Source of the DNA: Desulfosporosinus acididurans
GTDB lineage: Bacteria > Bacillota > Desulfitobacteriia > Desulfitobacteriales > Desulfitobacteriaceae
NCBI RefSeq assembly: GCF_001029285.1
Contig: NZ_LDZY01000003.1
Location: forward strand, 310,001 to 374,000
Direction: 5' to 3'
Length of the DNA stretch: 64,000 nucleotides
Part shown: positions 7,087 to 41,868 of the stretch, in pieces
How positions within the stretch are numbered: the first letter of the stretch is position 1
Layout of the letters: each line of letters opens with the position of its first letter
Made by a program: the position numbers and the translations under genes
The notes under the pieces: model-generated
What the model was told of the DNA's origin: nothing
The model's input: the letters and a program-made list of their open reading frames with translations, nothing else
Databases searched by the model: none

Positions 7087-7891
7087 GGTTGTCGGTGTTC
7101 GCTTTAAAAATGCGGGTAAAATATACTATTTCTCTCCGGGAGATCTTAAGCTTGAGGCCTCGGACCGGGTGATTGTTGAAACCGCAAGAGGTATTGAATT
7201 CGGTGAATTGGTGATCCCTCCTCGAATGGTAGCTGATGAGGAAGTGGTACTTCCTTTAAAGCAGGTTATTAGAAAAGCCACACCAGCTGATGAACAGTTT
7301 GTAGAGCAAAATAGAATAAAGGAAAAAGATGCTTTTCAAATTTGCTTAAAGAAAATATCCGAGCATCAGCTGCCAATGAAATTAGTTGACGTTGAGTATA
7401 CTTTTGACGGAAATAAGATTATTTTTTCGTTTACAGCTGAAGGAAGAGTTGACTTTCGGGAATTAGTGAAAGATTTGGCGGCCATTTTCCGTACGCGTAT
7501 TGAGTTAAGGCAAATAGGAGTTAGAGATGAAGCTAAGATGCTGGGAGGAGTCGGTTCCTGCGGCAGAATACTTTGCTGCACATCATTTTTGGGGGATTTT
7601 GAACCGGTTTCCATCCGTATGGCAAAGGACCAAAAATTATCTCTAAACCCAACAAAGATCTCTGGAATTTGCGGGCGGCTTATGTGTTGCCTGAAGTATG
7701 AAAATGGCTGTTATAGACCTAATGATAAGGAAATGTATGCCCAAGACTTAGAAGACATTAAGATGCTGGAAATTCTGGAGGAATCGAATCTTCTTGTCGA
7801 TAACCCTGTCGCCAATGCTAGTAAAATGAATGGCAAACAGCGTTGTAATAGGAAAGGGGAAAAGCCCAAAGGAAAGAGTGATAAGGTATGA
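7079..7891 (+). CDS. ricT: RicT (YaaT), PSP1-domain regulator of RNA processing and development
   Basis: Member of the Ric complex (RicA-RicF-RicT), which in B. subtilis carries iron-sulfur clusters and modulates RNase Y-dependent mRNA maturation, and promotes competence, biofilm formation and sporulation. The sequence has the PSP1 C-terminal domain with the signatures [17 protein letters not shown] and [13 protein letters not shown], whose cysteines are those expected to bind the cluster. Length is 270 residues, as usual, with a Lys/Arg-rich tail. GTG 7079 has AAGGAGGGG just upstream and lies inside the holB end; the stop overlaps yabA ATG by 4 bases. Confidence 0.92.
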
Positions 7892-8193
7892 GTCAGTTAA
7901 CTCAAGCCCTTACAGAAGTGGAAGAAAAATTGCGTTCCCTGCTGGAGGAAGTTAACCAATTGATACCTTACGTCAAGGCTTTAGAAGAAGAAAATATCAA
8001 ACTAAAGCGTGAGTGTACTCTTCCGGAAAAGGAGACGGAGCGGGTTATTGCCAATGCCGAACATATCCAAGGTGTTGCCCATGATAACTTAGAGCGACTC
8101 TATCATGAAGGATTTCACGTTTGTCATCTTCATTTCGGGCAGCCTTTAGAAGGGGATTGTCTGTTTTGTATGGGCTTTTTACGGAAAGACTAG
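7888..8193 (+). CDS. yabA: Replication initiation control protein YabA
   Basis: Negative regulator of chromosome replication in Firmicutes: it binds DnaA and the DnaN clamp and prevents over-initiation. The 101 residues show the expected two-part structure, an N-terminal heptad-rich coiled coil (about residues 3-47) for tetramerisation and a C-terminal zinc module (HVCHLHFG...[10 protein letters not shown]). The gene overlaps ricT by 4 bases, as in the usual holB-ricT-yabA order. Its presence is notable beside the DnaA-box triplet at about 41.3 kb of this window. Confidence 0.9.
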
Positions 8194-40642: not shown

Positions 40643-41191
40643 TTGAAAAGTTTTCCTCAGATTAAGGAGAGGAGGGGAAAGACTATCTCGGAATTTATGG
40701 CTTTTTTTTGGGTCGTTGCAGCAGGATTAATGGTGGGTGTAGTCTTTGATTTTTTTCGAACGTTTAGGCGTTGGCAGAAATGGGGGCCTGTCGTAACGTT
40801 CGCAGGAGATATCCTCTTTTCTCTTATTGCTTTGGTTATCCTCTATCGATTGTTTTTTAAAGCAAATGCACTGGCCTTTAGGTTTTATAATGTTTGGGGC
40901 AGTCTCTTGGGCCTTGTCTTATATTTGAGGATTTTCAGCTACTCTCTAAAAAAAGGATATTTCAAACTATTCCAATTGGTTGCCGCCCTTTTAAAGCTTT
41001 TCGCCGGAGGGGTTATGATTCCGGTTCGAGGGCTCGTTCTTCTTATGCGCCCGCCCTATGCGATTTTATGTTGGTTTAGTTTGCTTTGCTTTCGTATTGG
41101 AGAACATATTATTTATCGGCCCCTAGTAAATCTGGAAATAACTATAAAGGAGTGGTGGAGACAATTATGGCCGCCTAGGACTAATGGGTAA
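40643..41191 (+). CDS. yabQ: Spore cortex biosynthesis protein YabQ
   Basis: Membrane protein of the outer forespore membrane needed for spore cortex formation. The 182 residues show four hydrophobic stretches (about 17-37, 50-70, 78-98, 108-150) with the typical AAGLMVGVVFDFFRTFRRW. The TTG start has only a weak AAAGG; an in-frame ATG 17 codons later is possible. It follows yabP closely and the pair is probably co-transcribed in the mother cell. Confidence 0.88.
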   Translation: MKSFPQIKERRGKTISEFMAFFWVVAAGLMVGVVFDFFRTFRRWQKWGPVVTFAGDILFSLIALVILYRLFFKANALAFRFYNVWGSLLGLVLYLRIFSYSLKKGYFKLFQLVAALLKLFAGGVMIPVRGLVLLMRPPYAILCWFSLLCFRIGEHIIYRPLVNLEITIKEWWRQLWPPRTNG

Positions 41192-41283
41192 AAATTACCA
41201 AAGGGGTTGATTCGCTTCTAAGGAGTAGTTATAATAATTTGTGTAACTGATTGTAGGTCCTTTGTAGTTTTTTTGTAATTAAT

Positions 41284-41316
41284 TTGTCCACAAAGTTATC
41301 CACAAACTGTGTATAA
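41284..41316 (+). promoter_or_regulatory. Triplet of DnaA boxes at 12-base intervals
   Basis: TTGTCCACA (41284-41292, one mismatch), TTATCCACA (41296-41304, perfect) and TGTGTATAA (41308-41316, the reverse complement of TTATACACA, also a consensus box). The three 9-mers start exactly 12 bases apart, with 3-base spacers, behind an AT-rich stretch. They lie 24 bases before the sigma-like gene that overlaps divIC. Confidence 0.7.
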
Positions 41317-41339
41317 CTATTGAGCAAGGGTGTGCCGCA

Positions 41340-41582
41340 GTGCAGATTGAAATCAGAGGCTTGGAAAAACTTAGCTTTCGTGAACGTCAAGCAGTGATCC
41401 TTAAAGAAAGCGGGAAATCTTTGGAGGCCATCGCCAAGCAGCTTCAGCTTAGTTCAAGCTCTGTAGCCACGTTACTAAATCGTGCCCGGAGTAAAGGGTA
41501 TGAAATCGTATGCATTATACCAAGTGGAGAGCTTGGTTTGGAAGGAGCAGATTGGGATGAAGAAATCTTATCAGAAGATTAA
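41340..41582 (+). CDS. Small sigma-70 region-4-like helix-turn-helix protein
   Basis: An 80-residue protein whose first 55 residues resemble sigma factor region 4: LSFRERQAVILKESGKSLEAIAK is the scaffold helix and LQLSSSSVATLLNRARSKG the recognition helix. No region 2 is present, so it is not a complete sigma factor. The last 20 residues are acidic. The GTG start has only a weak GGGTGTG upstream. It overlaps divIC by 26 bases, so expression of the two is linked. B. subtilis has no gene here. It may be a small transcription regulator; targets are unknown. Confidence 0.7.
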   Translation: MQIEIRGLEKLSFRERQAVILKESGKSLEAIAKQLQLSSSSVATLLNRARSKGYEIVCIIPSGELGLEGADWDEEILSED

Positions 41583-41868
41583 ACCGCAAAAACGACAAAA
41601 GCCTCATCTTCGGCTAGGAACAATCGCCCTTTTGCTTCTTGTTTTTCTGGGGGTCGGCAGTTCTGCCTGGCAGCTTTGGAAACTTCATGTTTCGGTTGAG
41701 CAGCAGATTAATCAATTGACTCAACAAAAAGAAGGACTAATGCAACAAGAAAAGTCACTTCATGAAGAGATTGCCGAATTAAATACTCCCAGTTATGTTG
41801 AACAATTGGCCCGGGAACAACTAGGTCTTGTTAAACATGGCGAAATCCTTATTTCTCCCAAGAATTAG
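41557..41868 (+). CDS. divIC: Septum formation initiator DivIC/FtsB family
   Basis: Bitopic divisome protein that, with FtsL and DivIB, activates septal wall synthesis. The 103 residues have a basic cytoplasmic head (about 1-20), one membrane helix (about 21-42), an extracellular coiled coil (about 45-78; QQINQLTQQKEGLMQQEKSL) and the conserved tail YVEQLAREQLGLVKHGE. ATG 41557 has AAGGAG 9 bases upstream; the frame is open further, inside the sigma-like gene. Bacillus also has divIC right after yabQ. Confidence 0.9.
   Translation: MKKSYQKIKPQKRQKPHLRLGTIALLLLVFLGVGSSAWQLWKLHVSVEQQINQLTQQKEGLMQQEKSLHEEIAELNTPSYVEQLAREQLGLVKHGEILISPKN

Follow-up and report, generated by a model that had tools for sequence, protein, structure and literature searches.

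A phased array with DnaA boxes in the leader of an HTH-divIC operon, a candidate composite operator conserved in about 100 genera

The DNA analysed here, called the window, is a stretch of 64,000 nucleotides from Desulfosporosinus acididurans (contig NZ_LDZY01000003.1, positions 310,001 to 374,000). An array of short units that includes DnaA boxes lies in the leader of a small HTH gene that overlaps divIC. The features, in window coordinates, are as follows.

40643 to 41191, forward strand: yabQ, upstream of the array; its start codon is unsettled and the protein was scanned from 40706.
41207 to 41235, forward strand: sigma-A-like promoter TTGATT-N17-TATAAT, with 2 mismatches and a 17-bp spacer.
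41251 to 41283, forward strand: 5' part of the array, TTGTA units TTGTAGGTCCT, TTGTAGTTTTT and TTGTAATTAAT, 11 bp apart.
41284 to 41316, forward strand: 3' part of the array, TTGTCCACA, TTATCCACA and TGTGTATAA in 12-bp steps, conserved in relatives.
41340 to 41582, forward strand: gene of an 80-aa HTH protein with a sigma region 4 / GerE-like fold, judged the likely reader of the TTGT register.
41557 to 41868, forward strand: divIC (DivIC match 1e-14), with a 26-bp overlap with the HTH gene.

A preliminary description had reported three DnaA boxes here, two perfect and one near-perfect with 3-base spacers, and the sequence confirmed them: TTGTCCACA at 41284 is a forward box with one mismatch to TTATNCACA, TTATCCACA at 41296 is a perfect forward box, and TGTGTATAA at 41308 is a perfect reverse box (reverse complement TTATACACA). 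The sigma-like/divIC gene pair said to follow the boxes was also recovered, together with a YabA-like ORF at 7888-8193. The window holds 3 perfect TTATNCACA boxes, against a mean of 2.3 in 300 dinucleotide shuffles, while two perfect boxes at most 15 bp apart appeared in 0 of the 300; two perfect boxes and one near-perfect box within 33 bp are closer than chance. Chance clustering was ruled out by this result and by the 11-bp phasing found across genera. The three boxes form the downstream half of a six-unit array (41251 to 41317), in which three TTGTA-type units come first. The adjacent AT-rich tract, described earlier as a separate feature, proved to be these further units, with TTGTA at 41251, 41262 and 41273. 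The TTGTA-11 pattern occurs without mismatch at this one place only in the genome, and the array-model score along the window was 24.3 here and 8.4 at the best unrelated place.

The only Pfam match of the HTH protein above the curated cut-off was Sigma70_r4_2 (9e-10), and no named NCBIfam family passed its cut-off. Structure prediction (pLDDT 88.7) gave a three-helix HTH of the sigma-region-4 / GerE type with two flanking strands. Its core can be superposed on the domains of sigma region 4, GerE and LuxR-type proteins, but the protein differs from those proteins by the extra N- and C-terminal strands. Foldseek against the PDB gave nothing significant beyond generic HTH, and E was never below 0.001. 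A sigma-70 factor was rejected, since the 80 aa hold the region-4-like HTH alone and the core-binding region 2 is missing. No title or abstract found in the literature search described the HTH gene.

Homologues of the HTH protein were present in 156 of 399 genomes and 110 of 267 genera of the same phylum, with one gene copy per genome among the genomes listed; 55 named contigs carried homologues, and the closest named relatives were Desulfosporosinus. One HTH locus was fetched per genus, and 104 genera were readable; being related, these genera are not independent observations in any of the 104-locus counts. Using an EM model, the unit [TA]TGT[ACG][CG]A[CTA]A[A] was derived, the array exceeded the 99% shuffle level in 100 of the 104 loci, and 368 of 392 unit steps were exactly 11 bp, the model and PWM having been trained on the same loci that they scored. 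Neither the histogram of distances nor the test of strand asymmetry, both given below, depends on the model. TTGT-to-TTGT distances of 11 bp were counted 96 times in the 104 genera (0.7 expected), those of 22 bp 66 times and those of 33 bp 33 times, with none at 10 bp and one at 12 bp. The 12-base interval first reported is therefore true of the window's three boxes, as an exception to a step that is usually 11 bp across genera. A perfect TTATNCACA was found in 64 of the 104 genera, against 0.8% of shuffles, and a related four-unit search matched about 20 of the 30 genomes of the genus, nearly always once. The preliminary description had staked its reading on box conservation in relatives, and with the element kept in about 100 genera that challenge falls away. 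Between genera whose proteins are 55-65% identical, non-coding DNA is expected to be saturated, so such conservation indicates selection. Some arrays do drift, as in genome G123, where units turned into TTGGGATAAGC without an evident change of the HTH recognition helix. At that locus (L136) the array that precedes the HTH gene has grown into TTGGGGTAACC and TTGGGATAAGC repeats at 11 bp, which are no longer DnaA-like.

The array is fixed between promoter and start codon. In a scan with the sigma-H consensus, a sigma-H-like GCAGGAATT-N11-nnnGAATww was found ahead of the array in 55 of 104 loci against 11 expected, most of them sharing an 11-bp spacer, and the first unit typically lay about 6-20 bp past the -10 GAAT where such a promoter was found. 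In the window, a sigma-A-like promoter occupies the place of the sigma-H-like promoter of many other genera; sigma-A-like matches across the 104 loci (31 against 26 expected) were not above expectation. The site is thus near the operon promoter, where an operator is looked for, and because the array covers the transcript start, it fits repression or a roadblock.

The array is present in a single copy per genome, at the HTH gene, so that the site adjoins the putative regulator gene and is inherited with it. In 31 HTH-positive genomes, four-unit arrays were located at the HTH gene and other matches were about as frequent as in the reversed control, while 24 HTH-negative genomes gave 3 matches against 3 in the control. 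In 98 of 104 genera the HTH gene was followed by a DivIC gene. The six genera without a recognisable DivIC there still had the array upstream of the HTH gene; in five it lay close to the HTH start, and in the remaining one the distance was about 118 bp. Among 18 DivIC-family loci from 14 genomes, the array was found only in G337, an HTH carrier, and was absent from the HTH-negative loci and from those of G015. The latter genome has a weak HTH homologue (1.6e-13) and lacks the array upstream of its divIC. Two candidates were rejected on these data: a divIC-specific site, since HTH-negative divIC-type loci lack the array and HTH loci without divIC keep it, and a regulon-wide operator, since four-unit arrays outside the HTH locus were at control level.

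The units carry a DnaA signature. They come in two coupled types (odds ratio 41, p = 1e-35), one joining C6 to C8 and the other G5 to T8. Units with AC or CC at bases 5-6 mostly carry C at base 8 (TTGTCCACA), and units with G at base 5 mostly carry T at base 8 (TTGTGGATAA); TTGTCCACA and TGTGGATAA exemplify the two alternatives. Forward units precede reverse units, read 5' to 3', in 69 of 69 genera. Judged by these patterns, the two unit types are a single 9-mer, the DnaA box, in its two orientations. Genomes without the HTH gene have the same box pairs at dnaA/rpmH (oriC) and at spoIIR-ywlC. The pair TTRTNCACA-NN-TTGTGNATAA was observed at spoIIR-ywlC in the HTH-negative loci L288, L290, L292, L293 and L295, matching the B. 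subtilis site. In B. subtilis, ywlC is a strong DnaA site and is seemingly repressed by DnaA (PMC4447404). Helical spacing of DnaA sites matters at origins (see review PMC4285127).

A second, directional signature was found at box position 3. The G:A ratio there was 58:24 in forward array boxes and 18:72 in reverse ones (p = 1.5e-11), against 7:101 in dnaA-flanking boxes of 22 of these genomes (p = 2e-21), where the usual alternative is T. Compared with the origin of the same genome, reverse boxes are used alike and forward boxes are strongly shifted, having TTGT where origin boxes have TTAT or TTTT. Since DnaA alone predicts an equal preference in both orientations, DnaA was probably not the sole shaper of the array. 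A DnaA box of at most one mismatch does not accompany the element everywhere: 18 of 104 genera lack one and keep the 11-bp phasing (15 pairs, 0.1 expected), and the dnaA region keeps ordinary TTATNCACA boxes in those of them whose dnaA could be examined. The TTGT register and the box-less arrays appear to point to a second reader besides DnaA. Most simply this would be the HTH protein, to which the role is assigned by linkage; it could be another protein. The unit PWM also gives oriC clusters moderate scores, the two site types being not cleanly separable by sequence.

The oriC triplets upstream of dnaA in the same genomes resemble the array, with convergent boxes (box, box, box) in 11-12 bp steps, but their boxes have A or T at position 3 where the array has G, the TTGTA-11 array is absent there, and the array, unlike the triplets, is not beside dnaA or rpmH. 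The B. subtilis clusters outside oriC (ywlC, gcp, sda, yydA, trmE, ywcI) likewise consist of several boxes close to a promoter, some of them spaced by 11-12 bp, and the box pairs at spoIIR-ywlC in HTH-negative relatives are arranged as in the array; unlike those clusters, the array holds its boxes inside a longer, polar 11-bp series that includes TTGTA units and is linked to an HTH gene. Neither was divIC among the top-ranked published B. subtilis DnaA sites (it is unmentioned in PMC4447404), nor did the literature search find a paper with 'DnaA box' and divIC together.

Other box clusters were seen in genome G000. Immediately after tsaD (gcp), five perfect boxes fall within about 170 bp (region of G000:C10:190878-191052; L061 1475-1649); a DnaA-box cluster follows gcp in B. 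subtilis too, and the location may be conserved across distant Bacillota. Three perfect and two near-perfect boxes lie between argH and a nicotinate phosphoribosyltransferase gene (G000:C2:316131; L056 1492-1596). Four boxes in 11-12 bp steps, one perfect and three with one mismatch (G000:C4:246208-246240; L060 1489-1532), are at the end of an uncharacterised ORF upstream of a sigma-region-4-domain gene, possibly in a prophage region.

We tentatively favour, at close to an even chance, a composite operator in the HTH-divIC leader, which would be bound by DnaA and by the autoregulating HTH protein. The polar array would have 3 to 10 units on one helix face, 11 bp apart, running from the transcription start or just after it. 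Its 5' units (TTGTA..., TTGTCCACA) would be read one way, cooperatively, by the HTH protein encoded next to them downstream, which would regulate the operon to which it belongs, most probably by repression or as a roadblock. At the 3' end, the forward box and the reverse boxes that follow it would be true DnaA boxes in most lineages, so that the level or ATP state of DnaA may act as a second input on the synthesis of the HTH protein and DivIC. Which protein is paired with which unit, the sign of the regulation and the link to replication and the cell cycle are what we infer from the arrangement.

It is possible, though rather unlikely, that DnaA acts alone, with the high-affinity 3' boxes seeding an ATP-DnaA filament that extends across the weaker units (TTGTCCACA and TTGTA), each a helical turn from the next, and that represses the HTH-divIC operon or sets its timing. 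This account is consistent with the box coupling and convergent order, with the strongest boxes standing at one end, with the identical box pairs at oriC and ywlC, and with the binding of B. subtilis DnaA to boxes with up to three mismatches (PMC4447404). However, weak sites should drift, yet unit position 3 is nearly always G and otherwise A, with T in 1 of 488 units; weak origin boxes are mostly TTTTCCACA, unlike the array units; and the 18 genera with box-less arrays and the tie of the array to the HTH gene, not to divIC, argue in the same direction. The DnaA-responsive promoter first proposed is partly supported, as far as the box pairs match oriC/ywlC architecture, but DnaA alone leaves part of the array unexplained.

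Conversely, the array may be an autoregulatory site of the HTH protein in which the likeness to DnaA boxes is incidental. Its linkage to the HTH gene, the 18 genera with arrays but without DnaA boxes and the directional TTGT register all suit such a site; without DnaA, however, it is difficult to explain the coupling of forward and reverse box types (odds ratio 41) or the identical pairs at oriC and ywlC in genomes that lack the HTH gene, which makes this account distinctly unlikely.

A structural chromosomal site, either a cluster that titrates DnaA or a partition-like array of repeats served by a dedicated binding protein, is quite improbable. The array is in single copy and mostly near the origin, and non-oriC DnaA-box clusters of B. 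subtilis affect initiation timing (PMC13220808). Such a role is opposed by the fixed place of the array between promoter and start codon, by a location that tracks the yab-divIC neighbourhood, and by the lack of a linked partner ATPase or filament protein. Plasmid partition sites of the parC type consist of about 11-bp direct repeats by the gene of a small autoregulating DNA-binding protein. The array is likewise made of about 11-bp direct repeats beside a small DNA-binding protein gene, and it differs in having no filament ATPase, in having divIC as its neighbour and in the different protein fold expected.

Very improbably, the UUGUA repeats would act in the transcript: the array occupies transcribed leader sequence as far as the start codon, but helical 11-bp phasing and two-strand box symmetry suit duplex DNA, and leader folding was just slightly below shuffles (mean z -0.8). 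The origin-like unwinding site of the preliminary description, or a second origin, was rejected, since the element is a leader/operator near a promoter, its AT-rich part is made of array units, and dnaA with its own boxes lies about 64 kb off on the same contig.

Beyond the composite operator, a more far-reaching version, which we regard as unlikely, is that the small HTH protein, widespread and unnamed, builds a cooperative filament on an 11-bp array dedicated to it, where, and perhaps also at oriC, it competes or cooperates with DnaA; the array would then be a replication-state sensor by which DivIC synthesis is set when sporulation or each division begins.

The coupling of replication initiation to division is poorly understood in Gram-positive bacteria, and most DnaA targets known so far were identified in B. 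subtilis, in which this site was not found. The array offers a short, testable DNA element together with a specific protein: a probable DnaA-box-bearing operator, kept in about 100 genera, which stands before a division gene and an unstudied regulator.
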